A DNA stretch of 64,000 nucleotides from Polytrichum commune (Eukaryota; Streptophyta; Polytrichopsida; Polytrichales; Polytrichaceae), in contig OX485809.1 in the NCBI GenBank assembly GCA_950295325.1, forward strand, positions 23,622,001 through 23,686,000. The letters run 5' to 3'. The notes below the pieces were generated by a model that was not told where the DNA came from, made no database searches, and saw nothing but the letters and a program-made list of their open reading frames with translations. Positions 14,697 through 64,000 of the stretch are shown one piece after another; position 1 is the stretch's first letter; every line of letters starts with the position of its first letter. Made by a program: the position numbers and the translations under genes.

Positions 14697-15428
14697 TCAT
14701 GCAGCAATAAAGGGGACGACCAGAAGCATGAAATCCGTGTAATTGAACGTGGCATTACCAGACAGATGCTTATCCTGGTCTCTGAATTTTTCTGTCAAGC
14801 CTTTCACCACAAAACCGCACTCGACGAAGTTATCATATCCAATGATCCGACTGCCGCCCGTCATGTCATATTTGCCAACAAGCATCTGCAGAACTTGAGG
14901 AGGAATGGCAAAGTTGAAGCTCCGCAGAGCAGAATCTAGCTCATACATATCAATTGTACCACTTCCATCTCTATCATACTCGCTGAACTTGGCGTTCCAC
15001 ACTTTAATTTCTTTCCACAGCTTTGCAAACCCTACGGGTCCGATCCTAGAGGTATCGCTCCTGTTGTCGGCAAACAGGTGGAGCATGAGGCGCACAGTGC
15101 GATCGGTAAAGGGATACCGGCCTAGAGATAGTACCTCCCGCAACTCCCTTGCGTCAATCGTACCACTCCTATTGTGGTCGGCCCGCTGGAACACCTGGAC
15201 GATCTCCGGGTCTGTGCCAGGCGGGAACATCGATACTGGTGGATACTGTGGCTGTGGCGGATACTGTGGCTGTTGATTCCACGCCTGCAATCCTTGCGGC
15301 TGCTGACCATATCCATAACCTCCCGCCGGTGGTTGCCCGTAAGATCCTGCTGGCGGCTGTCCGTAGCCTCCCTGCTGAAACGGCGGAACTGATGGCTTAC
15401 CTCCAACTCCGTATTGATGCGACGCCAT
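14697..15428 (-). CDS. Penta-EF-hand calcium-binding protein (CML48/49/50-like), single exon
   Basis: The 243-residue protein has a Gly/Pro/Tyr/Gln-rich N-terminus (about residues 1-70, with GGYGQPPAGSYGQPPAGGYG) followed by five EF-hand segments, the layout of the ALG-2/sorcin/plant CML48-50 penta-EF-hand family. EF1 (D84 to E95, DHNRSGTIDARE) and EF3 (D152 to E163, DRDGSGTIDMYE) have canonical calcium loops. EF2 (near 121-132), EF4 (near 188-199) and EF5 (near 218-229) are degenerate; EF5 normally serves in dimerisation. Such proteins bind calcium and attach to membranes or partner proteins; the plant targets are poorly known. The frame is intact and uninterrupted. The plant relatives I know carry several introns, so this copy may be a retrogene, or its lineage may have lost introns. 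Confidence 0.92.
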   Translation of the reverse strand: MASHQYGVGGKPSVPPFQQGGYGQPPAGSYGQPPAGGYGYGQQPQGLQAWNQQPQYPPQPQYPPVSMFPPGTDPEIVQVFQRADHNRSGTIDARELREVLSLGRYPFTDRTVRLMLHLFADNRSDTSRIGPVGFAKLWKEIKVWNAKFSEYDRDGSGTIDMYELDSALRSFNFAIPPQVLQMLVGKYDMTGGSRIIGYDNFVECGFVVKGLTEKFRDQDKHLSGNATFNYTDFMLLVVPFIAA

Positions 15429-16599: not shown

Positions 16600-18084
16600 G
16601 ATTATTTGTCCGTTTTTAGCGTGGGTTGAAAATGAATGAGAATTGGTGAGGGCTCCAGAGAAATATTGTGGCCCATAATGATAAGACTAATTAGTGTAGT
16701 TGACTTACATGTGAGCCCATTTGTGAATTTGGAGCAAATGAATTTTCTTTAGCAAGGAATTGAAGAACAAGAAGCTAGGTTAATTTAATCAAGCTCATGT
16801 ACGTGGCCCTATTCGTGTTTGTAGCTTTGGCAACTATAAATGTGTAAGGATGTTCCCTTTCTATTCAAGCTTCATGAACAAACTTTTGCAAATCAAAGTC
16901 TTAGATAACATGCATGACTAGCAAGGTTATTCACTTGGCAAGTTGGCAAGCTCTTCTCTTGTAGACACCTCATTGTTGCCTATCTTCATATACTATACAC
17001 AAAATATTTTCCATGTATACCAAGATTCAACATAAAGCCCTTGCAAAGGGAACCTCATGAAGTATAAGCTCTCTAAGAGAGTCATCTATAAAGGGCCCCC
17101 ACTATGTACACCAATTGATGATGTTATGTAGTGGGCACCTTCAATTTGTTTGGGTTTCTCAACATCTAGGTATTCTCATTCAATTGAATGAGGTGACAAA
17201 CTTTCATCACATGAAAATGAGGTCTAAGGTATGTTGTCTTTTTCTTCTTCTTTTTGGCACAAATCGAAAAATCGATTGCAAGAAAGGAACCAAAAACAAC
17301 CACCTCAAGAGAACCAACGCAACCCGAGGGGAAATCAAGAAGTCTAAGGTATGTTGTCATGTTACCAAGGGGGTGCCCCTTCATTGAGCTCTAGGGAACA
17401 AGTTCAAAAATAAAGGTTCCTAAAGTTCCCAAACTAATGAAGGGAGTGGAGGTGTTGGAGTTAGGTGGAGCCCATCTCCATGAAGGAGATTTAAAAGCAC
17501 TTACATGAGAGTGGCAAGTACCAAAAACAAATAACAAAATCACTCTAAGCTTGGCTATAGGATTACTTAAAGTATGTATAGGCAAGAATTTAATCATTCG
17601 AGAAGTTTAGGCTAGAACTAATGGTTGTGTGAAGAAGACTATAATGTGTTAGTCATAGCTCTTTTGCTTTATTAAGAGAATTTTTGGAAATACTTTGGTA
17701 TATTACCATAATGAAACTACCTTTTATTTTATGTATTTGGATAGATTTTATATTGGCTTCATTGGGAGGCTTGTGTAGTTTTCTACACCGTGTGACTTTC
17801 TAAAGATTGCATAAGAATTGTGTGTGTGTGAAAATGGGAATTACATAAACTTGGTGTAAAAGGATTAGAATCTTTGCATGTTGATATCAAAAACTAAACC
17901 CTTTCCACTTGGCAAACCAAAGCCTTTCCACTTGGCTATACTCCAAAAATTGTACCTATGGCCTTTGTTTGTAAAGCTTACAAAGTGCTACACACCTAGA
18001 ACAAAAACAAAAATCACTTCCCATTGTGCCAATGGCTTATAATGAAACCGCACAAGGGCATGTATGTCAAGTTATGTCATCCTA
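16600..18084. other. Intergenic, repeat-like
   Basis: AT-rich sequence with a short direct repeat, GTCTAAGGTATGTTGTC at about 17223 and 17343. No gene or paired transposon ends are supported. Confidence 0.35.
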
Positions 18085-35208: not shown

Positions 35209-35441
35209 TAGTTGATTTCAACACACCCAAGTTACATGCCAACCTTGTTTTAATTATGAAATGTGCACAAGTCATAAGGGCTCAAACTTTGATTGGTAGT
35301 TGACCGACATCCATATCATTTCTACAGGTGCCTGATATTGAATACCCATTGTGCAAGATTTTAAAACTTTGATGGGTTTTGGTATGTATAGTAATTAAAA
35401 ATGGATTTTAGAATACTTCTAAATGATGTCATCCTAAGTAG

Positions 35442-35980
35442 CCATGGGCTAGATCACATCTTCATTTGGCTAGGGCCCGCCCCTCCCACGCCTCCTTCAC
35501 TTACCTTTCAACCTGTCCACACCTACGTGGGAACTCTTCCTCGTTGGGAACCAATGTGACAATACCCGGTCAAAATTACAGATATTCAAGTTGACATCAC
35601 TTTCATTATTCCCAAATTAATTGGTATTGTCACATTGGTTCCCAACGAGGAAGAGTTCCCACGCAGGTGCAGGCAGCAATGCCCGGGAAGTTTTTGGGCA
35701 TAATCGGTCAAGATCATGGTGATTCTAAATCCAACCGGTTACATGTTGACATCTTCCGGTTTTGCTCTATTCATTTGAGGTATATTCTATAGATTCCTCT
35801 AATACGATTGGTAATTCTACTGAAGTCTCAAACTTCAACCGGTTATTTCTCAAACTCAACCGGTTCATTTGTAACTAACTGACAATTCTCCCCGGCCATT
35901 GATGGGCATGAAGATTGGGTAGTGAAGGAAGCATGGGAGGGGCGGGCCCCAGCCGAATGAAGATGTGATCTAGCCCGGGG
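35442..35980. mobile_element. Diverged Mutator-like MITE (same family as 38891-39245)
   Basis: GGGCTAGATCACATCTTCAT at the left pairs with ATGAAGATGTGATCTAGCCC at the right. Inward come CGCCCCTCCCACGCCTCCTTC and its diverged complement, and a second inverted block GTTGGGAACCAATGTGACAA against TTGTCACATTGGTTCCCAAC. It has extra internal sequence relative to the 355-bp relative. No flanking duplication is recognisable. Confidence 0.75.
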
Positions 35981-36353
35981 TTGTTGGGCAAGCGGAACAG
36001 CCTAATTTCATCATGACCTAATTTTAATACTGCGTTCATTGGTCCTCTTGGAATGTTGCATGTGTTGCTGCTCAATTGATCCTGCAAGCCAGGAGAATGG
36101 CTTCATCCTACATTGTACACGAACACTGTATCTTGCAATTCTCTGTAGTACTCTCAAACAATTCTTGAGAAGCCCGGTTATAAAGCTGACGCTTTCATGT
36201 AACAAGCATTTTTAAGACTAACAAGTTCAAGGTGGTTTTACAAATTACATTAGTATTTGGAAGTGTAGACCTTTCTAATTCAGACCCAAATGGCATCAAT
36301 GGATTCCTCTCAATCGCGTGCTCTTTTCGAAGCATGTTACTCCTACTTATGAA

Positions 36354-36849
36354 CATGGGTAGATCACTCGAAGGCATTTTTGTGCACCACGTGCGGCTAG
36401 GGGTTTTTTGTTTTGAGGTTATTTACCTTCAAGGGCCGAATTAAAGTCTCCCTATAATTACTTAAATTTCAAAAATGGCCCATTTGTTTGCACCTTTCCA
36501 TTACTTATATTGTCCAAGTCACTACAATTTTTTGTACTCTATATTCTTTTTAAGTAATTTTGGACAGACGGAAATCCCAATTATCATCCATCCCCGTGAG
36601 TCCTAAACCCATTTACATACCATACTAAACATACCTTCTAGGATCCTTATCTTTGGCCCCTATATTAATTTTACAAAAAATAATGGCCCGCGTTTTATGT
36701 CCATCTAACTTACTTATAATGGGATTGTTTACATTTAATGGCCCCTGTATTATTTGGAATTCCTTTATAATTTTTATTTCAAATAATTTTAATCCTCTCT
36801 ATATTATGCTGCACGTCGTTTTTAAAATGCACTAAGTGATCTACCCGTG
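36354..36849. mobile_element. hAT-type MITE, 496 bp
   Basis: The left end CATGGGTAGATCACT and right end (read inversely) CACGGGTAGATCACT are inverted repeats starting with CA. The 8-bp direct duplication CTTATGAA lies at 36346-36353 and 36850-36857. An 8-bp duplication with CA-starting termini is the hAT signature. The similarity continues inward (GGCATTTTTGTGCACCACGT against TGCATTTTAAAAACGACGTG). Confidence 0.85.
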
Positions 36850-37051
36850 CTTATGAATGTCAAAACATCTTGAAGTCCTTAGAACTTTTAGAAGTGATGC
36901 CGCATCCCAGGAATTAAGAGCCGTGACGATGACTCCAACATACTCGTGACGAATCCCTCCTGTTATTGATCTTACAAAATACCAGCGCCAATTGATTGAG
37001 TCACCGCAACAGTTTGTTCTAATTCCGACATCTTGGTGGCATTTGTAACTA

Positions 37052-37684
37052 CAGTAATCTCCCACTTAAGTATGCACTTTGAACCGGAGTTGTTGGTGCG
37101 CACTTAATGGGTAGGTGCGTGCTTTGCTCATATTGCTTTCTAGACCTTCCGATTCGATGAATCGCAATGGGAAACGGATGAAACTTGAGGCAACCTGCTT
37201 GACCGAAGCCCAACGATGTGAAAACGTTTGCAAAGTTGAGCACGCTGAGCAAGTAGGCACTGGGGCGGGAGTATGAAGTCAATGAAGGTGCCATCCGGTA
37301 AGTTTGGGACAATCGGGAGAACATATTGCAACGAAATCCAACCTAGCGAGACATTTGTTGAATATGAAAATGCTACCGACTTCAAAGGATTTGAATCTCT
37401 ACACAACACTATCCTCGACATCAACGACCAACTGCTTTGCTCCAATGTTTAAACAAAAGTTGGACAGATGTATGATGAAATGCGATGATCAATTGAGACG
37501 TTTTAGCGAAACGTTAACAAATTGATATTTAATTTCAAGCACAAAAAATTCATGCATTCGCGACAAATGACTATGCATGACATGTTCAAACAATAAAGTA
37601 TGAACCCTAATTTTTGTCCAAAAATTTGCACACTTAACCGGGATGCATACTTAAACGTGTGCGTACTAAAGCGGGAGATTACTG
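37052..37684. mobile_element. Pogo/Tigger-like non-autonomous element, 633 bp
   Basis: The left end CAGTAATCTCCCACTTAAGT and right end, read inversely, CAGTAATCTCCCGCTTTAGT are matched for about 28 bp (on to TAYGCAC). TA lies on both sides (37050-37051 and 37685-37686). CAGT starts with TA duplications are typical of pogo/Tigger elements. No intact frame is inside; short plus-strand frames (37304-37525) could be remains of a coding region but show no motif. Confidence 0.85.
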
Positions 37685-37686
37685 TA

Positions 37687-38879
37687 CAGCTCCTTGTCCA
37701 AAATTCCATGTGCTTCTTGGCTTGAGAAATTGTTGGTTTCCTCAAAATAGATCCATCGACAACAAACGTGTTGCCCTCGCCACCAAAAAGTCATCGCAAA
37801 CCCATCAAGAAGGCATCAGCTAAATGGTTGCTCATATGTCGTTCTAAAATTTATGAACTAAACGCAAATATCCCCTTTGTATTGCCAATGATCAGCAATA
37901 TTTCGATGTTTTGTTAAGGGAATTTGCACGCAAATGTTTTGCAACGAGTTCACATCGACCTTTCAATGTCCTTGAATTGCATTTGGATCATCATGAATTA
38001 AGGTATGCGGTTGTTACTCAGTTACTTTTCTTAATCGTACATCTATATTTTATTGGTGTGTGGTTCGCTGAGGATCAAAGAACGAAAAATCATGAAGATA
38101 CATGTTTAAAAGAGATTGAACTACGTCTTCAAATCTTCTTAACTACTCCACGCTCAAAAAGTGAACACAATTGAGAGGGTTTATATCCCAACTTAAGGAA
38201 TCAACAAATATGCGATTCGGATAACCATAACTAAATAAGGGGAGGTGCATTTGTCAGTTTGGTTGTTGTTGGTGTTTCATCATAGTTTTGCTAATGCAAC
38301 ACAAATTTGAAAACGTGTATAAGATTGATAGAGGATAGAGAATAAGAAAAGCAAACCGATTAACATCCTCATCCTTTATGTCATGCTCTCGTCACACCTA
38401 TTTAATATACATGAATAGTCACAACTTTTATAAGAGCTAACTCAATTATTTACTCTCTTCATCGGGATGCACCGTGTGCTGAAAGGTCCAAGCCAAGGAT
38501 CTATAGGGTTAGGAAGAGAAATATCTATAAAACCTAGCTAAGGTAAGTGGGCCTAATTTGGGTACTTATCTTAAATGGACTTTCATATTTGAATGGTTTG
38601 TGGTTAGGTGTGGAGCTAAGTACGGACACGAAAAAGACATGTGATTTAAAAGAGGGACCATATGACCAAGTTATAGCTCTTTGGCCGTCACTTTTGAAAA
38701 TTCATATCAATTTATAGTAGGCTACATAACATTAGTCAATAGGCAAGGTGAGTTGAGTGGGTCATGGAATTAAAGGTGGTATTATTGTTGGATCTTGTCG
38801 ATTTTACTTGCAAAGTCTATATATAGTGTCAGGTTGAGCTCATTAAAGGTGTCCAAGGCTATTGAGTAATTGTTACTTA
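37687..38879. other. Intergenic, no gene supported
   Basis: AT-rich; the 87-codon frame at 37911-38174 (+) shows no recognisable motif. Confidence 0.35.
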
Positions 38880-38890
38880 CACTAATGAAG

Positions 38891-39245
38891 CCCCGGGCTA
38901 GATCACATCTTCATTCGGTTGGGCTCCGCCCCTCCCACGCCTCCTTCATTGCCCAATCTTCGTGTCCGCACCTGCGTGGGAACTCTTCCCCGTTGGGAAC
39001 CAATGTATTCAATACCCAGTCACTTAAACCGTTAAGCTCCTATGGCATGTGAAGGAACTCTATCAATTAACTTGGGAATAATGAAAGTGATGTCAACTTG
39101 GATATTTGTAATTTTGACCGGGTATTGTCACATTGGTTCCCAACAAGGAAAAATTCCCATGCAGGTGCGGGCAAGAAGAGCGTGTATTGAAGGAGGCGTG
39201 GGAGGGGTGGGAACTAGCCGAATGAAGATGTGATCTAGCCTGGGG
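38891..39245. mobile_element. Mutator-like MITE, 355 bp, with 11-bp target duplication
   Basis: The left end CCCCGGGCTAGATCACATCT and right end AGATGTGATCTAGCCTGGGG are inverted repeats; the arms stay similar for about 120 bp. The direct repeat CACTAATGAAG lies at 38880-38890 and 39246-39256. Mutator-like elements normally duplicate 8-11 bp (most often 9) and have long terminal repeats, so this assignment fits. Confidence 0.88.
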
Positions 39246-39445
39246 CACTAATGAAGGTGTATTGATAAAGCATGGTTGATGCACTCCCAATTTTGAAAGT
39301 TAGTAGTGGGTTCAAGAAGTTGCAACCAGAATGCACCATGTAGATTGTTACGAACCATTCACTCTAGATTTTGAGATAATTCCCCGGCACTTCTGTTTCC
39401 AATACATGTGATTCATTATGAAAACTGGGAAAAGGTATTTTGAGT

Positions 39446-39593
39446 CATAACATTATTCAAATCCATAACATTGTTTTGTGGGACTAACAACATATCACAA
39501 AATATTCCCCCACATTTAGTCTAAATGTGAAGAATATTCCATGGTATATTGTCGATCCCACAAAACATTGTTATGAATCTAAATAATGTTATG
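39446..39593. mobile_element. Hairpin MITE, about 148 bp
   Basis: CATAACATTATTCAAATCCA continuing to AACATTGTTTTGTGGGA is matched inversely by TCCCACAAAACATTGTTATG and on to AATAATGTTATG. Nearly the whole element folds into one hairpin with about 40-bp arms. A TA duplication is possible, but the boundary is ambiguous. Confidence 0.7.
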
Positions 39594-48150: not shown

Positions 48151-48162
48151 TGCAGGTAACTA

Positions 48163-48640
48163 AGGTAGAGGGTGCTTAAACCAACACTTTAAGCCATTGC
48201 ATACAAATGTGGCCATGCCACGGGGAATCTATGAATTGTCAAAGTCAGAACTAGTAGCTTCTTAATTCCACTAGCTAGGCCGGGCAAGTAAAGTGAGGGA
48301 GAGACACGAGGACTATCTCATTTATTATATAACCTCAACCTCTACTAAATACATACTAGGCCTACTTTACACCGGGAACCGAGCTCATGCTCTCATGAAG
48401 CCCCACCATGCAAAGCCTTAAACCAACCTTTGTCTAATAATGAACCAATCCTAGTGGAGCGTGCCAAGATACCAACCTAGTGAGCCTACCAAGCGGGCCC
48501 TACACTTTAACCACTATACCTACATGACATATATTAATCTCCTTCGTATCATGAACCAACCCCTTTGACTTTGTGGGCCTACCCCCTTGGCAACAACCTT
48601 GTCCTTGGGTAACAACCTGCGTTTTCACCATCGGTTAATT
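48163..48640. mobile_element. Truncated copy of the AGGTAGAGGGTG element family
   Basis: The left end AGGTAGAGGGTGCTTAAACC follows TA and continues through AACACTTTAAGCCATTGCAT, as in the 34466-35208 copy. A second shared block is GGGCCTACCCCCTTGG (about 48580), which matches the complement of the other copy near 34770. The partner terminus is not found. Confidence 0.6.
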
Positions 48641-48764
48641 ACCAAGAAGTTAGTACAAAACACAATCAAGTTACTCCAAATGGTCATCACAACAACCCAT
48701 TTAATTTTGCAATGAATTTACACTTCCATTAAGTTAGATTGTCTTAAATAGTTAATTTCTAATA

Positions 48765-49707
48765 CACCCTAACCTTGATAATGTCACACCTTCCGTTTCA
48801 CCAAAAAACGTGGTATAAATAAGGTGTGGCATAATGGATAATGTCACATTTTGTGCATAATGTGATATTATCACAAAAATATGTGGAAAATCTAAATAAC
48901 ATTACAATGTAAAAAAGAAAATAACAAATACAAGACTTCAATGTTTTTTAATGTAAAATCTAATTCAAAATTGTGAATAACAATAAGAGCACATCATAAT
49001 GTGTCATTGAGATTAGGTAAAGACCTCTTACTACACTAAATAAGTATATTAGTGATAGATGAAGATTAGTGTTAGAGCCAATAGTTACCCAAAACACTAA
49101 ATGTCAATTGAAAGTACAATTAGTGTTGATAAAGTACACTTTATTTTGCATTGTCAAAGTTGAGTTCCCTTAAGTTTAAATGTTGTAATATCAAATTCCT
49201 AGCATATTACATTTTCTTTGAGGCTCTCATATTATACCTCCAATTCTTCACTTGAAGATTTACAAATAATGTCATCTAACACTAAATGCGCTTTTGTAAA
49301 TATTCAAAGTTACTAATTGGTACAAATAGTATTAGAGTTGACATTTAGTGTTCTAACACTATGAAGACAATTGACAAATAGCGTTTTCGTTGACTATTAG
49401 TGCTTCCAACACTAATCTACCCATTTAGTGTAGAGACAAAGAAGCTTCTAATGTCATATTGATTTGCCGAAAGGTAGGTGAAGATGGCGACGTCATCCAT
49501 AGAATTTGTTGTCCATCCGGCCTTTTTCATCCATATTACTTGTTATTATCACACTTACACTACAAATTTTGGAAAAATTAGTGACATTATCAAGGGTGGT
49601 AGGGATAATAACGAGGGAATTTTACACTATGGAAATCGGTTTCAAACTTTTAGGTGACAATATCAAGGTGTTCTATTAACAAGGGTGGCATTATTGAGAT
49701 TAAGGTG
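48765..49707. mobile_element. TA-flanked element, 943 bp, with CACCYTAAYCT ends
   Basis: The left end CACCCTAACCTTGATAATGT and right end, read inversely, CACCTTAATCTCAATAATGC are about 80% identical over 28 bp. TA lies on both sides (48763-48764 and 49708-49709). The word GACATTATCAAGG or its variants recurs three times within 49600-49707, resembling subterminal transposase-binding repeats. A smaller inverted-repeat element is nested inside. Confidence 0.6.
49031..49433. mobile_element. Nested inverted-repeat element, 403 bp
   Basis: CTACACTAAATAAGTATATT at the left pairs with AATCTACCCATTTAGTGTAG at the right, and similarity continues inward through TTAGTGTTAGAGCCAATAG and ACACTAAATGTCAATTG. 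No target duplication is evident. Confidence 0.55.
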
Positions 49708-49942
49708 TAGTCATTTTTATTATAATTGTCTAAAATAAAATTATGAAAGAATATACAAGTTAATCTAACATACCTTCTTTTGTAGTTTAGCAAGACGTAA
49801 ATTTTAACAAAGTGCACATAAAGGTTGAAAATCATACCTTGACTATCGGAGATAGAATTTTCACCGCCCACGTTGGTAATTTGACCAAGGAGATGGTTGT
49901 TTGGAGTGTGTTGGGCCATAGGTGGTAACGATGATCCTGTTG

Positions 49943-52395
49943 CTAGCCACTCTCTACGAGGGGCTCCAGGGTAATGCACCCAAATAGGCTCTTGCAATGG
50001 GCATAATTTTTCACTGGGTATTTTTTTTTCATAGCCCTCCTCCACATGCTCATTTTTTGGTTCAACTGAAACAATGGATGTATTGTACCACAACATGGGG
50101 CCCGGTAGGCCCCCCTACCAAGAGGTGCATTAGCCTTTATTGCCTCATGCAATTTTACCCCAACTTCAGTGCATCGTTTAACTGGCCACATTACTCCATA
50201 TTCTTCCGCACGTTCTTCGGCCCTAACCTTCTTCGCCTTTGCCTTTTGTCTTTTTTCTTGTGCCTTTCGACTTTTATTAATCTTAAGATCAGCTTTTCTT
50301 TTCTCTTTTTCTCTTGCTACCTCCTCACGTCTCTCTTGCTTCTGTTCTAAAGCAGTACTGTAATTATCACTAGTCATAATTATAGACTTTGAATAATCTA
50401 TAAGCGGAGTGTCACGATTCCGTCGAGGAATCACCACTGTTTGTGGAAGGGCCAAAATCGAAGTTAACCTTAATGCTGCGTTCACGTCAACTCCATCCAA
50501 CTCTTGTGAAATCATATTTACCTCGTCGGTAATTTGCGCCCCCATCTCTACCCCCTCGTGCACTGTATGCATTGTTTCTCCTTCATCATCTCTCACTGCC
50601 ACCATATATTGATTTCCACCTCCTTGAATTTCACGTACCCTTTCTCCGAGCACCTCCTCCACATACTCATCATCTACCTCTTCTTCATCAACCACATCCA
50701 GAGTATTTACAAACACTTTGCTGGGGCCCATCTTGTCATCCATGGCTGTCCGATTTAAAGGCCAAATACCAGTCGCGCTAAATACTTTTCTAATATTTGT
50801 TGGAGTCATGGCCTTTTTCAAGGCCAATGACACCCATTGGGCTAGGTCCTCCTTTGCGGCACCTTTACCCTTGTTTCTAATGGTCCAAAAATCCCGATAT
50901 TTTCTAAAGGCCGTTTTGAACGGTTTGAAAATACTAACATCCAAAGGTTGGGTAGCATGAGATGTGTGGCTAGGAATGGTAAGAAGGTCTAGACCTACTT
51001 TTCGGGCCGTATGCGCAACATCTATAGTAACATGGGAGTTGTGTCCATCCATTATCAGTAAATGACGATTCTCGGTAGAAATGCCATACATTATACCAAC
51101 GTGGTGTAAAAAGTGGTTAATCCACTCGTTGAATAATGTTCCCGTCATCCACGTTTTTTTTGCATAGCCATACAAGCTCCCTCCTCACACCTAATTATAA
51201 AATTCCGCCTAAATGACCTACCCTTAAATATATAAAAAATAGGAATACTAGAACCGGAAGCATTGATGCATGACAATACTGACAACCATTCTCTCTCATC
51301 GGGAGTGACAGTATGTACATTCCGTATTCCCTTTTTAGCCAAAACACATCCCCCGCCATTCCTCCCCACCTGGGCCCCGGACTCATCACAGTTCCAAATG
51401 TGAGTTTCCGGATATTTGTGTATTGTGTACATATCCTGTAAATTATCATACAAAGATGCAACATTCTCAGGACATAAACCCTTTGCCTTGGACTGCTCCA
51501 ATCCTTGCGCTACTCTAAGTGTCAAAGTCGGATTCCGTGTTTTGAACCACTTTACCCACCCTGGATCGGGAATGCCATTGGTAAAAGGTGTGTCACGATC
51601 TTGGGTGATTTCAGCCACCTTCAATCGGCATTGACTTAAGGTAATTGGATGACCTAGTGTTTGCATTTTGAAAATCCAGTTTACTAGTTCATTCTCCTCC
51701 TCAGATGATAACACCCCCGATTTGCCACGTTTTCTACTTAATGTTTTCCCGAAAACATGGTCACGGTAAGACGTTGTGGGAATTCCATAAAGTCTAGCCA
51801 CTGTTTTAATAGGAGCACCATCATCAATTGCAAGCATGGCTGCATTTAGATCTTCATCCGTCCAGTTCCCATTTTTTCTAAGTTTTACACCTGTACGTTC
51901 AGAACTTGTACCATTTATAACTGGGCTAACACCAAAAACATGCCCGCCTAGCGCACTAGTGTGAGCCGCTCTAGCCCTAGCTGCATTGGGACTAGGGGGC
52001 AATCCATCAATATTACGGATTTGGATATTGCTTGAATTTCCTACTACACGAGCCCTTAGACCACCAAGCGGACGACCTCGAGCAACCAACATCTCCGGAG
52101 ATGCCATAACACCCTCATTGATTCCATTCACATCATTGGCGTTCTCCCTTATCAAGGAGTTAACTTGAGGAGATGACTCCTGTAGCTGCGCAAAATCAGC
52201 AAAACAATCCCCGCTGCGTGGATCATAATCAGACTCCTCTCCACTTTCATCCTCTTCCACGTCAATAAGTGGTTCAATTGCCACATCGGATCCTTGAAAA
52301 TGATCAATAAATTGATCGCTTTGCTCATCCAAACTTGTAATATAGTCTTCAGCATGTGACCTAGCCCCCCTCATGTCTGCACGCAATATATTCAA
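49943..52395 (-). pseudogene. CENP-B/pogo-family (Tc1/mariner superfamily) transposase, split by a one-base shift
   Basis: Two long minus-strand frames make one transposase. The first, 416 codons (52395-51145), has an acidic N-terminus, a Psq-type HTH at about 175-215 (GNWTDEDLNAAMLAIDDGAP), a CENP-B-type HTH at about 228-290 (LSSEEENELVNWIFKMQTL, GWVKWFKTRNP) and the first catalytic Asp, D337 in IWNCDESGAQ. The second, 410 codons counted from a TTG (51175-49943), has the second and third Asp 36 residues apart, D43 in LLIMDGHNSH and D79 in SHATQPLDVSIFKP, then a Lys/Arg/Glu-rich coiled region. The frames overlap by 31 bp and change at an A8 run (T8 at 51154-51161). The switch is -1, so it equals one lost A or a -1 ribosomal slip. 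An acceptor-like GCGTGCAG precedes ACATGAGG at 52376, so the true first exon may start elsewhere. All three catalytic Asp are intact. Confidence 0.9.
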
Positions 52396-55034
52396 TTAAG
52401 ATATTATTAAAAATTAATAAATATTATATGTACACACAAATAATGAGACGGCTCACTAGTGTCACATTTGTATAACACATAATTTGTCAAGGCACGAACA
52501 ATGCAAAAGATTCTAAAAATGTTAAGTTTTGTGGTGTATGTAGGTTAGAATCTTAGTGACAATCATTAATAGAATACTCTATATTATGGATTTAGATCTA
52601 ATATGTATGTGTAGTTTATGCCCCTTTCCAACTTAACTTTAGCGAAGCCTAAAAGTTGGTTACGAAAACAAAGCCTTCACACCATCAACACTATCTAGTC
52701 AACATAATTGGAAGGGCATATGTGATCACTTAACTACAAAAATCGCCTTCATTATGAGATCTATAAACTTTGGCATTCAATTCCGATCCCAATTTTTGGA
52801 ATGGTACTTTGCATGATTGGCAATTGCTAACTAGGCGTGATAATTCAGTCCAATCCAACGGTCCATATGAATTCATGAGGAACACATTTGCCCACCATAT
52901 GGCTAAAATATACCTTAAGGCAAAAGCACGAAGCTCAAAAGCTTGGGAAGACATGCAACAATTGACGATGAGAACCTACCGACATGTTGATTTAGACCTT
53001 CATTATACGTTCAAATATTAATATAAGTGAGAAACCTCTATGCGATTTTTTTAACTATAAAACAAATGTTCATTTGGCCACTAGTAACTTTTGCATATAT
53101 AGTCCATGATTGTAATTGCTAACTAGATGAGTTTCATGATCCAATCCATTGGTAATTGTTTCGGGGGGGGGGGCAAGGCTAGGGGCAATAAAACTTAAGC
53201 ATAAGTAACAAATGCGCAAAATATTAAACTTATGCATGCATGGTTTGACTACATATATGCAATTGTCAACCCAATTAGCAATACATTTGAAATTGCTTAA
53301 AAGTAAATATACATTCACTTTGATCTCTAGTGACTTTTGCATCTCAACTTTCATCCCCAAATTAGGAGGGATAGTTTGTGATTAAGAACTACACTAAATA
53401 ATCATAATATTGTGGGGCGCAATAACTTTCTAGAGCTCCCGATAGTTCTCAACATGAGAATTAACTTGGACTACATTAATTATTTTTTCCCTAAAAAATT
53501 AGTGTGTGGTTTATTATTTAATTATATATTTGTTGTCCTATAACTAGTATTCACATGGGGTTCCAAGTCATTGGTCCTAAGGTTGATATGGATGCTTACA
53601 TGGCAACATTTTTTGGAGTTGATATGGCATGATTTAAAAGTGGAGGTTTTAAGCCTCAAGCACCAATCTTCCTATCGGTAACTAGACATGAGGCAAGAAT
53701 TTTACGACCTTCAAAATTGTTGTACTCCGGCCCTTGGATTGGTTGCTTATAGTCTTGATTTCGAGAATATTAGGAGTTTTTCTAAAAATTGATGTTAAGA
53801 TAGATGAATAGTAAGATATTTAGGGATGGGACAATAACTATCCAACATGTCATTGCCTAGTGGATAAATAATGTGTGTGAAAACTTTTTAACTAAAACCT
53901 ACTCGAAAATCTCCATAGTAAGTTTTTTTATATGCATTGAGATAGCCGGATGTTATAATTAATAAGGTTTTTATCCAATACTCGGGGTCTGATAAAGACT
54001 TTGGTTATTTGTTAGATTTAAGTATGAAGGAGGCATTGGTAGTGCAATAAAGGTTTAATGGGTTAGAATTTATATCCAAATGGGATAGAGATGCAATAAG
54101 TAGGCAAAAATGTATATTTATAATAAAATCATTCATACAAAAACATAGATCTACTTAAGAATGTAATTAGGATGGTTAAGGGATAAAAATTACCTGGATG
54201 ATAAAGTTGAAAAGAATGACTGAATGCCGAGGAAAAGAATAGCCAATAAGAAGAAATGATATACCAGATCGCTCAATAAAAAATATATATATATATATGT
54301 GTGACCTTAAATCCTCCTTATACTACATACATTAATCACCCTTGTATGTAAATCAATCTTCCAATCACCTTCTAATAAATAACTTAATGAGCCGTCAAAG
54401 CAAATACTCTAATCACTCTTGCACATGGATCAACCTCTCATTCACCTCCTAATATGTAACTTAATGAGCCCTCAAAGTACCTTAATCACTATTGCACATT
54501 ACTCTTAATTACCCTTAAAATACTAATTGCATGTAATTAAGCAGTCATTCTCAATCAATCCTCAACCAAAACATGAATGTATTTATGCACGCTGATCCGC
54601 CTCTTAATCAACCCCCTTAATCACTTAGGTAAAAGCTAAGCAACCTCCGCCTAGATAGATGAGCATGAAAACAAGAGATCTAACACCGAAATCCGGACAC
54701 TTAATACACTAGTGTCAACCTACCTTACATCCTAAACCGCCACCTAATATCTGACAACCCAGCTAGGTTGCATGGGTGGAATGAATAGTGTTGTCATATT
54801 TTCTAATCTAAAAGTCCGGGAATAACAACCTAACATAGTGCAATGGCCATTCTAAATAGTATTTAATCCTAGCACCTCCACTATGGGGTGGCGTGCCAAC
54901 TAGCACCTTAAACCGTCACTTGGCGGGCCCAGCCACAGAATTAGCACAAGTGACGGTTTAAGGTAAGTAGGTATTGGTAGTTAGGAGGTGGGTATAGGTG
55001 TCGGTTTATTATGGGGTAACAGATTTAGCTGCCT
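52053..55034. repeat. Left arm of a large inverted duplication
   Basis: This arm is matched in reverse orientation by 56691-60525. Checkpoints from outside to inside pair as follows: 52060 with 60520 (transposase codons), 52390 with 60190, 52500-52690 with 59890-60150 (CACTAGTGTCACATTTGTAT region and GTTGGTTACGAAAACAAAGC), 53600-53990 with 59440-59870, 54000-54170 with 59330-59440 and 58500-58570, 54300-54520 with the tandem TTAATCAC/TAATGAGCC units, 54680-55034 with 56691-57050. Arm identity by eye is about 75-90%. Confidence 0.88.
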
Positions 55035-56690
55035 CTACCTTACCACTTGGCACCACCTACCCCCTGAGCATGTGAGAAGACACGAAGTCTGCAAGTTTCT
55101 TGATTATATCTACAGGTCTTTCTCTTCCCCCTTCATTCCTCTGATCTTCGCCTTCATTTTTGTCTATATTTTTATTATTGTTTTATTATTTTCTTTAAAT
55201 CCTACTCTTTAACCATTCCACATTATATTCACCTATTAAATTAATTTTTGCACGACAACATGTTTATCATTATTCAATTGCATGATTCTTACGTCTTATC
55301 ACTTACACCATTTTTTTAGTACGAATATAACATATAATGAACTTGTCAACACGATGATATAAAACATGGCCCAAATATAATTACTTCATTGCGTGCCCAA
55401 TATTCTAACTAATATCTAAAACTTATAAATCATTTAAAAAAATATCAGTCATATATTTGTTTCAAAAAAATATTTTTTAGAAGAGATATAAGTGAAAATC
55501 AATCCTAAATAATCTTTAAAATATTTTCGTGCTCATATAGAAGAATATTTACATAAGATTTCATAAGATTTGGCCTTAATATGGCTGAAGATTTATTTTT
55601 AATAAACGTTTTATCTACTTTCTTATTTGTTAATGGCTTTCTCTTTAGAATAAATATTGCATCAAGTGTGTACAAAAAATATGTTTATTATTATAAATAT
55701 TTATAAGAGATGGCCAATAACTTTGGAATCACAAGATTTCGACGATATAACTTATCATTAGCCTTCTTGTATCTTAAAGTTTTTGGAATAAAATATCACA
55801 CATTAAGAAATTAGACATAACAATTTCAATAATACTATATACATGCGCCAACATTGAAGGGTCGACATTCTACGAAATTGAAAAAAATTTAAATCCAATT
55901 CTATAATAAGGGGTAAACTACTGTTAGATATTGTCATATCTTTGGCAAAGACATACGCAATGAATAAATGATAAGCAAATAAGTTGCTCAAGTGACAAAA
56001 TATATTATTGTCTGATTATTAAATTTTATAAATTTTATTTTATTTAAAATTTGGATAGAATTAAAAATATTATTTTGTGAAGATCATAATGAAATTTAAA
56101 AAGTCATTGAGGGATAAACCTCATCCATTGCGTGAGGTGAATAGGTATCTCATACGTTAAAAAATCAAACTCCACAACAATTAATATTTATCAATAAAAA
56201 AAATCACCATTATTATTTCGAAATCTAAATATATTATAAAAAAAACTTTATGTTATATATTACAGTATCATTAATATTATTTGTAACAAAAGAACTAGAG
56301 AAGTTGATTTTATTGGCCGGATTTATTCAACCCGTTAAGCATATTACATGGATCTCAACAATGATAATTGTTTGAAAATAAAACCTTTAGCAAGGTCACG
56401 CTCAATAATCATTTTTCGCTTTCTTTCATAAACCATATTTCAGAAGATGTCGTTTGTTATGCTATGTATCCATTTGCGGATAATTATTCTGGATACAACT
56501 AGATTGATGTGGTACAAACTGATGGTTTAAGACGGCATTTAGCACACCGTGATGAACATTTATTTATGTATTAATAGTCTTTGAATTATGTAATGCCTCG
56601 ACTACATTTCAAAGGGCGATGACGTATATTTTTTCCGATCTTTAGCATAAGTCGATGGCGGTTTTTATTGACGATTTTTGTATAATGTAC
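55035..56690. other. AT-rich spacer between the inverted arms, 1656 bp
   Basis: No inverted match between its halves was found. It is very AT-rich with A and T runs, and I see no coding motif. It could be an insertion between two head-to-head elements or the loop of a foldback element. Confidence 0.6.
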
Positions 56691-57486
56691 AGGCCGCTAA
56701 TTCCGTTATCCCATCATAAACCGACACCTATATCCACCTTCTTACCATTAATATCTACGTACCTTAAATTGTTACTTCTGTTAATTCTGTGCCTGGGCCT
56801 GCCAAATGACGGTTTAGGGTATTAGCTGGCACGCCATCCCATAGTGTAGGTGCTAGGATTAGATACTATTGAGAATGGTCATTACACTATGTTAGGTTGT
56901 TATTCTCGGACTTTCAAAATGGAAATTATGCCGACACTATTCATTTCACGAATGCAACATAGCTGGATTGTCAAATATTAGATGGCGGTTTAGGATGTAG
57001 GCTATAATGACACTAGTGTATTAAGTGCCTCGGACTTCGATTTTAGATCTTTTTTTTTTCGTGTTCATTTAGGCAAAGGTTGATTTTTACCTAGTGATGA
57101 AGGTTTTAATTAGGAGAGATGAAGAGGCGGATATGCGCGTAAGGATGATTGGAACTTATATTTTCAATGTTAATTAAGGTGGATCAATATGCGAGTGTGA
57201 TTCATGCTTATATTTTGATAATACATTAAGGTTTTTGTTAGATATTAATTAAGAAATGGATCAATGTGCTAGGGTGATTAAAGCAAGTAGTACTCTGAGG
57301 GCTCATTAAGGTATTTATTAGGAGGTGGATCTTTACTTCAATACCTTTGTCCTGTGGGCATCGGATTGGGGGTGGATCGAACAGACAATTAATTTACGTC
57401 TGTCTCCTCCGGAGACCGAATTTTTTTTTGTTCTCTCTCTTATTAGGAGGTGATTAAGACATTAATCTATATGCAAGAGTGATTAA

Positions 57487-58062
57487 GGGCATGTTTAGAC
57501 TTGGGGCCAGGGCCATTGGTGAACGAAGGCCAATATGTCCCATGTGGCATGCAAATGGGCCCCCAAGGCCATTAATAAGAAAGTTATCTAATTTCATTTA
57601 TTGCTTTCATGTGTAAACCTATTTAGGTGGACTTGAGGCCATTTGGAGGCTGCAATTATGAGAGGGTTATCCACCTCAATACAGGAGCCATGTTGAGTGA
57701 GTATGACACTCTTATTTGTTCTTGTTTTGGTAGCTAGTGTTCTTTTGTGTGTGTTCTTCGTTTCGTATAATAAAATTAGAATTTTTTCCTTTCTATTTAA
57801 TGCTTAAAGAATAAAGTATTACAAGCAAATAAAAGCTCTGACAATGGCCTCAACTAGAAGAAAATAGTCCACAAGGTTGGGAGCTATCTTTTCCAAGGCT
57901 TGAGACCATTGTCATGAAGAATAAAATAATTTATTTTTTAATTGGCCCCAACTGATGGTGTAAACTTGAAGATGCGAGTTCCAGCCTCTCTACCAATGAG
58001 AGGAGTGGATTTCTTGCACCCCAACTCATTTTTGAGCCTTGACTCCAAGTCTAAACCTACCC
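57487..58062. mobile_element. Tourist-like MITE, 576 bp, inserted in the right arm
   Basis: The left end GGGCATGTTTAGACTTGGGG and right end CTCCAAGTCTAAACCTACCC are inverted repeats. TAA duplications lie at 57484-57486 and 58063-58065. It is absent from the left arm, so it arrived after the duplication or was lost there. Confidence 0.85.
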
Positions 58063-58665
58063 TAAGGTATTTGCTTTGAGGGCTCATTAAGATATTTATT
58101 AGGAGGTGATTGAGATGTTGATCCACGTGCAAAGATCCATGTTGATTAAGATATTTGCTTCAAGGGCTTGTAAAGGTGCTTAGTAGAGAGTGATTGGAAG
58201 TTTATTTACATACAAAGGTGATTAATGCATGTACTATAAGGCGGAGTTAAGGTATTAATTATAGAGTGATTGAGAGGTGGAGTAGCGTGCAAAGATAATT
58301 AAAGTATTGCTTTGGAAGTGATTAAGAGGTGGGGGACATCCAAGGGCGATTAAGGCGAAGCAACTAAAGATAATAATTGGTTTCTGTATTTAAGTTGAAG
58401 TGATCAAGGCCACATAATTTTATTTTATTTATATTAAGCGATGTTGTGTTAGCATTTCTTCTTATTGACTATTCTTTTTACTAGCATTCATTCATTTTTA
58501 TCAAATTTATCATCCACGTAATTTTTATTTGTTAACCATCTTAATTACATTCTTAAGTAGATCTATGGTTTTGTATGTATGATTTTTATTTTAAGTATAT
58601 ATTGCATCTTGAATCCATATAAATATATTAAGATCTAATTCTTTAATCAATTTTTACATATCTAA

Positions 58666-59192
58666 TGGGGCATTCCCATCTGACTTTAGTTAAGACCCAA
58701 AGTATTTCCTAAAAACCGGGTAAAGCTCCTTCGGTTATAGCGGAGGCATCCGACTATCCCAATGCACCTACAAGAACTTGCTCCGGAGATTTTCAAGTAG
58801 GTTTTAGTTAAGTAGCTTTCACACATGTTCATGGTTTTATCTACCAAGCAATGAATGTTGGGTAGTTTTTGTCCCATCCCCAAATGCCTTACTACTCACC
58901 TATCTTACCATCGGTTTTTGTTAATGGGGCTCCTCGTGCCCTCATAGCTAAGACTAAAAAGCAACCAATCACAAGGGTGGGAGGCGACACTTTTAAAGTT
59001 CCTATATTCTTGCGTCATGTTTAGGTACTGATGGGAGGGTCGGTGGTTGAGGCTTAAAACCTCCACTTTTAAGCCATGCCACATCATTTGCCACCTAGGC
59101 TCGGCACTAAAAAGAGCCGTATGTGTGAACCCTAGATAAAACCGCTTTTAGACTAAAACTACTTCTAACTAATGTCAGGTGGGAATGCCCCA
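58666..59192. mobile_element. Tourist-like MITE, 527 bp, inserted in the right arm
   Basis: The left end TGGGGCATTCCCATCTGACT and right end GTCAGGTGGGAATGCCCCA are inverted repeats continuing to TTAGTTA. TAA duplications lie at 58663-58665 and 59193-59195. Its interior (TCTACCAAGCAATGAATGTT, AAAAGCAACCAATCACAAGG, GAGGCTTAAAACCTCCACTT) is closely related to 59440-59880 and 53580-53990. An older copy of the same family is therefore part of both arms, and this one is a later arrival. Confidence 0.9.
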
Positions 59193-60184
59193 TAAGCCAT
59201 ATAGATTCTAGATCTATATAGTTAATCATTGGTTGCATCATTAGGCTATATAAATGTTAGATTGAAGCCCTTCATCACTTATTGTATAACTAAGTTACAT
59301 GTATGTTAGATCTACATTCTTAATTATTTATTGCATCTCTATCCCATTTGGATATAAAATCTAACCCAATAAACATTTATTGCACTACCAATGCCTCCTT
59401 CATACTTGAATCTAACAAATAACCAAAGTCCTTATTAAAACCCGAGTATTGGGTAAAAACCTTGTTGATTATAGCATCCGGCTATCCCAATGTATATAAA
59501 AGAACTTGTTATGGAGATTTTTGAGTAGGTTTTAGTTAAATAGTTTTTACACATATAAATTATTAAGTAATTTTCATACATATTAATTAGTTAAGTAGTT
59601 TTCACACACATTATTTATCTACCAAGCAATGACATGTTGAATAGTTATTGTCCTATCCCTAAATATCTTACTATTCATCTATCTTAACATCGGTTTTTTA
59701 ATAAAGCTCCTTATACTGTCAAAATCAAGACCAAAAGCAACCAATCACAAGGGCCAGAGACAACATTTTTAAAGGTCATACATTCTTACCTCATGTCTAG
59801 GTACCGATGGGAGGATCGGTGCTTGAGGCTTAAAACCTCCACTTTTAAACCATGCCATATTATTTACCAACTAGGTTCGGGACTAGATAGTGTTGATGTT
59901 GTGAAGGCTTTGTTTTCATAACCAACTTTTAGGCTTAGCTAAAGTGAAGTTGGAAGGGGGCATAAACTACATATACATATTAGATCTATATCCATAATAT
60001 ATATCATTCAAATAATGATTGTTACTAAGATTCCAACTTACATACACCACAAAACTTAATATTTTTAGAATCTTTTGTATTGTTTGTGCCTTGATGAATT
60101 ATGTGTTATATAAATGTGACACTAGTGAGCCGTCCCATTATTTGTGTATGCATATAATATTTATTCATATCTTAAATTTATTGT

Positions 60185-60525
60185 ATGCAGACACGAGGGG
60201 GGCTAAGTTACATACAGAAGACTATATTACAAGTTTGGATGAGCAAAGCGATCGATTCAGTGATCACATTCAAGGATCCCAAGTGGCAATTGAATCATTT
60301 ATTGACATGGAAGAGGAGGAAAGTGGAGAGAAGTCTGATTTTGATCCACGCAGCATGGATTGTTTTGCTGATTTTGCACAACTATCCGAGCCATCCCCTC
60401 TCAAGTTAACTCCTTGATAAGGGAGAATGCCAATGATATGAATGGAATCAAGGAAGGTGTTATGGCATCTCCGGAGATGTTGGTTGCTCAAGGTCGTCGA
60501 CTTGGTGGTCTAAGGGCTCGTTGTG
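60185..60525 (+). pseudogene. Truncated second copy of the transposase N-terminus
   Basis: After an acceptor-like TATGCAG, the frame starting TRGAKLHTEDYITSLDEQSD matches residues 8 onward of the minus-strand transposase, with HIQGSQVAIESFIDMEEEES and DFDPRSMDCFADFAQL. A shift at CCATCCCCTCTCAAGTTAAC ends that frame at 60417. The match resumes in another frame (RENANDMNGIKEGVMASPEM, then LVAQGRRLGGLRAR) and stops at 60525. ATG of the other copy is ACG here. It covers about 115 of the 416 codons and has no DNA-binding or catalytic domain. Confidence 0.88.
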
Positions 60526-61727
60526 AGGCCAAACCTACCACCTTTAAGCGTCCTAGTCCAGGTAATAGGTTGGAGATCACATGTGTAACATAACAACTTG
60601 TGGTAACATGGGATGTACATTCTACCTTGATGAGTTTCTAATTTAATTCAAATCATGACATTTTATTAGTGTGAACCTCGTGCATAGACACATCCTTGGT
60701 TTTTTCCAGAGTCCACCCCACTGCCTTTGTCACGTATGCCTTCAATGATTTCCCCCTTGCAACTTTGGTTCTGGCTGTCGATTCTTCACTGGTGCATGAC
60801 ACCTCGCTGAGGCTATGATGTGTTGATTCCATGAGGCACATAAGTTTTAATACAAGTGTTAAAAAACACTTATATAACTTAATATTACCTCATCTTCCAC
60901 AAGTCTCTCACAAATCCTTTCCAACTTCATCTCATAATGCAACCACTAAACCAACTAGCCTAACCCTCTAGCCTAACTAATTAGTCTAATTAACCATCCT
61001 CACTAACTAGTAGTAATTTAGCTTGTCGATCTAGCTTAGACTCGGGAGTGCACAACTAGTTGGAACTAGATTCCTCCTTAACCCATTCGCTAAATCTACT
61101 TAACCCAGCCGCTAGGCCTAACTAGCCTCCGTCTTTAACCCAGCCGCTAAGCCTAACTAACTTCAACTTCAAACCAGCAGCTAAGCCCAAGTGCCTTCAA
61201 CTTCAAACCAGCAGCTAAGCCGACTGCCTCCAACTTCAAACCAGCAGCTAGCCTAAGTGGCCTCCGCCTTAAAGCCTACAAGGTTGAATGCTTTAAATCT
61301 AACATGAATCTAGATGCTATAATTTTAAATGTCATAATTCTAAACACTATAAATTTAAATGATATAAGTCTAAATTCTATAAGTTGAACACAACGAGCTA
61401 AGCTCTAAATGCCTCAAACCAAAGACTACTCCTAACAAGTGTCAACTAACTTCAAGGTTAATTAGTCTTGGTTCTTCACCTTGAGACCTTGCACACACGC
61501 GTGCTTCTTTCTTGTTTCCCACACACCCACACTCATAACACGTGGGGTACCAATAAGCACAAAGGAAACAGAGAGAGGGAGAGGGGAGAGTGAGGATTAT
61601 ATAGTGAGGTGAAAAGGAGTAGGTGAACACCCCCAAGGCTCAAAATAAACCTTTTGATCATTTCCTAATTTGTAGGCTCTCATCCTATCTTTTAAGCCTT
61701 CAAGGAAGTAGGTGAGCACGAGAAAGA
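60526..61727. other. Between the inverted duplication and the retroelement; short tandem repeat
   Basis: At 61097-61275 a unit of about 39 bp recurs roughly five times. The core is ACTTCAAACCAGCAGCTAAG, with older variants CTTTAACCCAGCCGCTAAGC. AT-rich words (CTATAAGT, CTATAATT, each followed by TAAA) repeat at 61310-61390. This may be the LTR or leader of the following retroelement, but no LTR ends or primer-binding site were recognised. Confidence 0.5.
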
Positions 61728-64000
61728 ATGGAACCAACATCAAGACTTGATGTGGAAGCTCCTGCGACGACTTTGCCGCCCTGTAGTCCATCAACATTTT
61801 CGAAGGTTAAGACCTTAGATGAAGGAACCCTCGAGGAATTAATGCGAGGCAAGAGAGAGCTGAACGTAAAGTTCGGTGTTTTGACAAAAGGCACAATGTC
61901 ATGCTCTTCACGACCGAGTGAAGGCCCAAAGAGGTTTGTGATGCGATGTATTTGGTGTGATGGTCCAAAACACAAACAAGATGATTGTGGGTCGTATACT
62001 GCTGCCATAAAGAGCGATATTGTTATCTTTCAAGAAGGTAGAATACAAAATGCTGCAACGGATGAGCCTCTAGATCACTAACTTTGCGAGAAGAGGCATG
62101 AGAAAATTGATGGATGATAGATTGGGAAGAAATAATTTAGCACGTGGTAAGGAGGTTGAATCTTATACAATTGGGGCTGAACACAAGATGGAATAAGCTA
62201 TGCATGTTTCTAGAGAAGTGATGGTGAGAGGAGCACAAACCATAAGGAGTTTAACTGGGTGGGATGATCCAGTTGATGCAACCACCATCAAAGTATATTT
62301 GATGAGTGAGCATGGAGAGAAATTTTTTTTTGATGTATCAGTGGAGGTCAAAAGGGGCAGAAGTGGAGAAGAAGAAAAAGGAGACGAGCTAACTAATAAA
62401 CGAAAATCTCTAAGAGATGGGAAAATTACTCCAAAAAAAGGACCTGCGAACAATACAAGGCAGAGGCATGCACCAAGACCAGAATTCATTTCACGACAAG
62501 GAGCTGATGTTTCATTACCAAATGAGAAGTCAGAGGAGATGATGAGTAGTAACAAAGGAACTAAGGGGGAAGACAATATGAAGGGAATGGGTAAGGCACC
62601 GGCCTACAAATTCCAATCTGATATTAAATCTTCAGTTGATTTGAAATGTATTTTGGAGGAAAAAAATTTTAGATGCCAAGATTGAATTTACTCTGAGAAA
62701 AATTCTTCGTATTGCCAAAAAAAGATTTCATAAGTTTATCATCGATGTGATAAAGAGGAAGAGACAAATGACAGCATAAACAATGATGGTGGAGGCATTG
62801 AATAATGTAGTGATGAAAGAAGAAGATGATGATATTGGACAGATGTTTGCCTTAAGATGTGATAGTAAGGGCAGTAGTGACAAAATCAATGAACGAGAGG
62901 TCATTTCTTTGAAGAGGAACGAGGAGGAAGGAAACACTGATGAGAGCCAAGCAATTGAGGTTGTAATGGAGGTACAATTAATACAATGTGGAATTGATAC
63001 AAATTCGAGGAGTGATGGTGATTTGTATATAATTTATATTCATCTATTTTAGGCAAGAGTTACTTCTAAAGCATGTGTGAAAATTGAAGGCCTTGGAGAG
63101 CCAATTTTAGCATTGATTGATCATGGCTCTGAGATCAATATCGTGTCCAAGAATATTTATGAGAATGCAAATGGCCAATTGATACCAACCATGGATGGGT
63201 GTTGAGAGCTGCCAACGATGGAATAGATAGCCTTTATGGATCAAAATTGAAGATGTGGAGGTGGAGCATAATTCTTTTGTACAAAATCAAAGAAGTTATC
63301 AGGCCATCTTAGGATAACTATATATCACTGCAACAAGGATGGAGACCAAGGTGTTTGATGATGGTTCACAGTATGTTAAAATTCGTAGTCTTAATAGAAA
63401 AAGGTCAATCCAATTTCTCACCGTGAGGCTAGATTATGATAGGCATAGGGATGAACTTAGAGATACTCCTATAGTCTATAAGCATGATAATTTTTTGGAT
63501 TTTTAGATTGTACACGTGGAGGATGGGGTACCACGGGTGCAAAGGAATTTTCTAGCATAACAAACCCCATTGTACAAAGAAGTAGTTATAGTATTTGGAA
63601 TTTAGTAGAGTATGGATTTTATAAATTTATGGAATTATTAGAGAAGAAAGATTTTGAAATGATGTTTTACGAGTTTTAGAGACTTTGTAAAGAGAGGTCA
63701 CATCGTGTACCCAATTAGTAGTGGAGATTCATTCAATTAGGTTGTATAAAGATATTTTCAAATTTGATACGGAATTAATGATGGATGGGAATTATGGCTT
63801 GAAAACTGAAGCAATGGTGAACACCATGTATAAAATTGTGACTAAGAATATGAAGCCAGTGGCAACACAACTCCTAGCGGACTCCGAAGATTATATCAAG
63901 AAGGCAAAAGAAGAACCTAGATTGAGGTGGATAAGATATATTGGGCACAAGTTTACAGAAGCAACATTGGCCAAACTGAAGATTGGAGGGGATGAGGTTT
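61728..64000 (+). mobile_element. Decayed Ty3/gypsy-type retrotransposon, gag to pre-RT, running off the window
   Basis: The first frame (61728-62081) ends gag with a zinc knuckle of the form C-x2-C-x4-H-x4-C (CIWCDGPKHKQDDC). Then come a shifted segment with VMVRGAQTIRSLTGWDDPVD (62200-62685) and LDAKIEFTLRKILRIAKKRF. An aspartic-protease motif LIDHGSEINIVSKNIYE (about 63115-63165) follows. Near the end are QFLTVRLDYDRHRDELRD and a pre-RT segment (IGHKFTEATLAKLKIGGDEV) at 63930-64000. Several frameshifts and stops interrupt it (near 62080, 62660, 63050 and 63200), so it is inactive. RT, RNase H and integrase would lie beyond the right edge. Confidence 0.75.

Follow-up and report, generated by a model that had tools for sequence, protein, structure and literature searches.

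The stretch of Polytrichum commune DNA analysed here (the window: 64,000 nucleotides, G000:C7:23622001-23686000) contains two long inverted arms that face each other across a spacer and have the 5' portion of a transposase gene in common, and the question raised by this arrangement is whether it is a single structure, generated by the duplication or folding back of one transposon, or the by-product of separate events. The evidence points almost with certainty to two pogo-like, TA-targeting copies which would have inserted independently, facing each other 1.64 kb apart. The ends of the two elements, their TA duplications, the target sequences they interrupt and the difference between their sublineages are observed directly; that the right-hand copy is the older of the pair, and that the two do not function together, is what we infer from these observations.

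Geometry of the inverted arms

Comparison of the window with itself resolves the arms as collinear inverted blocks, 52048-55042 and 56683-60521, with identities of 72-88%. The five tabulated matches between them are 52048-52711/60521-59867 (87.6%), 53622-53895/59860-59587 (88.0%), 53864-54120/59563-59307 (88.3%), 54304-54484/58253-58063 (79.2%) and 54615-55042/57103-56683 (82.1%), the weakest having an E value of 2.8e-39. The inverted repeat that the first-pass annotation described as a palindrome of about 8.5 kb is therefore real, but it consists of two features, not one. Its inner edge had been placed closely, at 55034/56691; the actual edges lie 8 bases farther out, at 55042 and 56683, and leave a spacer of 1640 bp.

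A second cluster of inverted repeats is present at 35440-39593, in which a pair at 35447-35626/39240-39061 is 87% identical and a 357-base stretch (38890-39246) is self-inverted at 73% identity. Elsewhere in the window, the minus strand carries a 243-residue penta-EF-hand-like open frame (14697-15428) and a tRNA match (17851-17945), the single Rfam match in the window at gathering thresholds.

Two elements with separate ends and targets

The left arm belongs to an element of 6882 bases on the minus strand (48161-55042, TA at both edges included) with complete ends, the 5' end at 55042 and the 3' end at 48161. Its termini read TA-AGGTAGAGG... and ...CCTCTACCT-TA (start TA-AGGTAGAGGCAGC, finish CCCTCTACCT-TA). 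The left element is collinear with loci L036 and L037, both on contig C6, at 97.1% identity and with L039, on C3, at 96.3%, the only break in collinearity being at 48227/48228, where a gap measures about 81 bases. Its transposase occupies two overlapping minus-strand frames in 49943-52395, the first of which (51145-52395) matches the HTH_Tnp_Tc5 profile with E = 7.1e-09, while the second (49943-51175) matches positions 45-177 of the 177 of DDE_1 with E = 3.1e-17.

The right element, on the plus strand, occupies 56683-64000 within the window and continues beyond it (locus L046) to a TA at 66415-66416, its other TA being at 56683-56684; its termini read TA-ATGTACAGGCCGC... and ...CGCCTACGT-TA. 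Its matching blocks are 73-89% identical to L036. The homology is lost at 60521 and returns at 64999-66094 (82.7% to L036) and 66254-66416 (79.4%), so that the element ends at about 66416, 2.4 kb past the window. The arms had been read as the 5' half of a transposon only, because the last parts of the right element lie in L046, beyond the window edge; that reading fails on both sides, since the left element reaches 48161 and the right one resumes at 64999. The abrupt stop described for the right arm does coincide with a loss of homology, but it is the edge of an inserted repeat, past which the transposase resumes.

The foreign repeats that interrupt the right transposase begin at 60522, run to the end of the window and extend to 64998, and about 1.04 kb of the transposase is missing at this interruption. 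The DNA from 60522 begins with TG and forms a 1.2-kb repeat (60522-61719) found at 35 other places among the candidates scored (40 of 1302); at 34 of these 35 places the repeat begins exactly at the position corresponding to 60522, and at one it begins four bases later. Several genomic copies of this repeat finish with extra tandem units at 89-base spacing, for example on C4 near 52517856-52518213. Beyond it, from about 61720 onward, lies a second, distinct repeat that matches 4 other places at 86-87%, and at none of these is the 1.2-kb repeat listed alongside; a DUF4100 match within this second repeat falls under the cut-off in a profile search (22 against 27.9 bits). The interruption thus comprises at least two foreign repeats plus a deletion. 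Self-comparison at E 1e-5 found no pair of repeats flanking the 60522-64998 insert. Splice-like letters after 60521 had suggested captured exons of a host gene, a candidate which is ruled out by the recurrence of the DNA from 60522 at the 35 other places.

One of the insertions that had been assigned to the right arm alone was recovered, at about 57487-58063; its ends are inverted and TAA stands at each edge. Within the right element an internal segment is also present in two versions in tandem (58428-59109 and 59307-59885), of which the first is 73% identical to L036 but 83% to L040-type copies (over 58675-59109), while the second is 88-89% identical to L036; judged by these identities, it is as if the right element were a mosaic of two subfamilies.

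The spacer (55043-56682) is made up of the flank of the left element, a dispersed repeat at 55043 to about 55257, a middle part, and a retroelement fragment at about 56278-56684 whose codons, rather than a profile match, suggest a Ty3/gypsy-like pol region. Matches to the spacer are listed at 29 other places in the genome for its left part and at 9 for its right part. All seven retroelement copies tested, which are those given as loci (L002-L008) among the 9 listed, are continuous across the right insertion point, from 56684 to 66416, the alignment of L007 restarting at 66425 and that of the other six at 66416. At the left site, the first 12 of the 29 listed places were compared: all 12 match the spacer side, and 11 of them match the far flank beyond 48161 and align over the joined site. 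The twelfth, L058, stops at the junction and matches one side only, which is counter-evidence at this site. A pattern search for the far flank of the right element found no matches inside the window, because the site lies beyond it, in L046, and the sequence differs. Parts of the spacer (55295-55778) recur in the same orientation just past the right element (G000:C7 23688899-23689772, 83% and 76%), and these may possibly be remnants of the element into which the right copy jumped.

Kinship of the copies and origin of the pair

The genome searched comprises 407.8 Mb in 64 contigs, and the inner 446 bases of the left element occur in it at no fewer than 27 places, two of them within the window. 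The comparison covered the DNA around 11 of the remaining 25 places, together with the DNA past the window. One of the places compared (G000:C6:17293321-17293643, covered by the two overlapping stretches L048 and L049) is a miniature derivative of 323 bp which retains both ends only, with TA on each side. A TA with a related terminus is present at both ends of the left element, the right element and 8 of the 10 other printed copies; L040 and L043 are not counted among the 8 because their 3' ends fall outside the guessed coordinate.

Over three aligned blocks (the 5' end, the transposase 5' part and the transposase 3' part), the left element is 95.8-98.9% identical to L036, L037 and L039, against only 82.4, 89.7 and 84.1% to the right element, which in the transposase 3' block is no nearer to it than L041 is (85.1%). 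In a tree of 10 copies, which leaves out the internally deleted L038 and the partial or tiny L042 and L048/L049, the left element with L036, L037 and L039 is split from the right element with L040, L041, L043, L044 and L045 at an ultrafast-bootstrap value of 100. L036 and L037 have near-identical flanking DNA and lie about 392 kb apart on C6; they probably go back to a single insertion that was afterwards copied along with the DNA around it, in a segmental duplication, and are therefore counted as one independent copy.

The content of the copies divides in the same way. One segment, at 52712-53620 and about 909 bp long, is present in the left element, L036, L037 and L039 and absent from the right element, L040, L041, L043, L044 and L045. 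A second segment, of about 946 bp (48768-49713), is likewise present in the left element, L036, L037 and L039; L040, L041 and L044 lack it at their printed junctions, and the right element has no room for it, with 159 bases between the neighbouring matches. This second segment has inverted TACACC-type ends at TA and is perhaps a small nested transposon. The sequence common to both arms at about 53622-54120, which had been taken for an older shared MITE, recurs, entire or partial, in all but one of the 11 copies compared (10 of 11), the exception being the internally deleted L038, and so is a segment of the family itself and not a later insert.

These results fit a sequence of events in which the right copy would have inserted at a TA within the Ty3/gypsy-like pol retroelement fragment and later received more insertions, including one within its transposase, while the left copy, from a different sublineage, would have inserted at a TA in the neighbouring dispersed repeat. 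Cut-and-paste transposition acting twice, in opposite orientation and 1.64 kb apart, would then leave the inverted repeat as a by-product. A post hoc estimate of the chance of a facing pair at this distance, for a family of 27 places and uniform insertion, is about 7e-4, and because of this low value a local or regional preference for insertion may also have played a part. Against this low figure stand the large number of transposon families and the tendency of repeats to accumulate where repeats already abound.

An alternative that assigns a role to the pair is a trans-silencing locus, in which read-through of the facing arms would give a hairpin RNA, and from it small RNAs directed against the family. 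The arms as originally delimited do have 109 exact inverted 21-mers and 73 exact inverted 24-mers in common, but their longest exact inverted match falls short of 40 bases. Because the two transposase genes point outward, neither would give a hairpin by ordinary transcription, and a transcript across a whole element and the spacer would be required; the layout of Mu killer, in the accessible part of its description (PMC3440606), is also different. This alternative is accordingly very improbable, and there is equally little likelihood that the separately inserted pair, if read through, yields small RNAs restraining close family members, a trans-silencing locus made by chance geometry. Judged on sequence alone, a hairpin-RNA role for the facing arms has no support.

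The first-pass annotation had offered two head-to-head insertions alongside two origins as a single unit, and it is the former that holds, given that each arm has its own terminus with TA, that each interrupts a different repeat and that the left element is far nearer to copies elsewhere than to the right one. An inverted duplication, by replication or breakage-fusion, that took in one element and the DNA upstream of it would account for collinear, inverted arms around a spacer, but on either side of the spacer the homology stops at a transposon terminus, the two elements each possess a TA and a target repeat of their own, and the tree places the nearest kin of the left element elsewhere in the genome; because the arms are not each other's closest kin this origin is rejected, its probability being close to nil. 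A single giant foldback element moving as a unit is just as hard to credit: it would explain the long inverted arms and the spacer, but TA and termini occur at the inner as well as the outer edges, the left element groups with L036, L037 and L039 in place of its supposed other half, and, among the matches listed, a second element adjoins in none of the 11 other places compared (of 25). An assembly artefact is unlikely, the arms being merely 82-90% alike and lying in different target repeats.

Comparison with known systems

The family to which both elements belong is classed, by its domains, the spacing of its catalytic residues and its target duplication, among the pogo-like DNA transposons. 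The family assignment was compared with PMC7386202, PMC7325037 being a further reference. As in the pogo and Lemi elements of the accessible text of PMC7386202, the copies have HTH_Tnp_Tc5 and DDE_1 domains (over two frames in the left element and in one 606-residue frame in L036, where the N-terminal 180 residues are in a separate frame), a TA target-site duplication and short terminal inverted repeats. In L036, with the catalytic residues of the DDxD motif chosen by eye, 35 residues separate the second and third D, and this DD35D spacing is within the DD29-42D range given there for Lemi. Unlike those elements, whose published lengths are 1.2-5.2 kb, a descriptive range and not a criterion, the present family measures 5.5-7.0 kb (L036 and L037 7011, L041 5510 and L044 5546 bases), and in the left group this extra length is mostly due to the two inserted segments. 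The family is perhaps part of the Lemi group of land plants. A protein search with the N-terminal frame of the left element returned 53 relatives without informative names, at most 62% identical with one exception (87% identity over 22% of the query). The locus is best seen as ordinary transposon clutter and not as a dedicated silencing structure.

As a caution, the case shows how a nested repeat and the edge of the window gave two complete-ended transposons the look of one truncated palindrome; it was decided by the genome copies, the TA duplications and the interrupted targets. Among the papers listed for head-to-head insertions, inverted repeats and small RNA, none reports this locus in its title or in the opening of its abstract, which is no proof of absence from print. 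Were the small-RNA reading true, the locus would show in simple form how chance insertion can give rise to a silencing locus. According to the accessible part of PMC3440606, Mu killer is an element that has undergone internal deletion and partial duplication; it has two TIRA ends, and its partial mudrA copies end in an inverted duplication. The two loci are alike in that each combines, as inverted copies, the 5' portion of a transposase gene with its terminal region. In contrast to that layout, in which one rearranged element has its termini outside, the locus described in the present work consists of two separately inserted elements, each with both ends, whose 5' termini lie inside and whose genes point outward.
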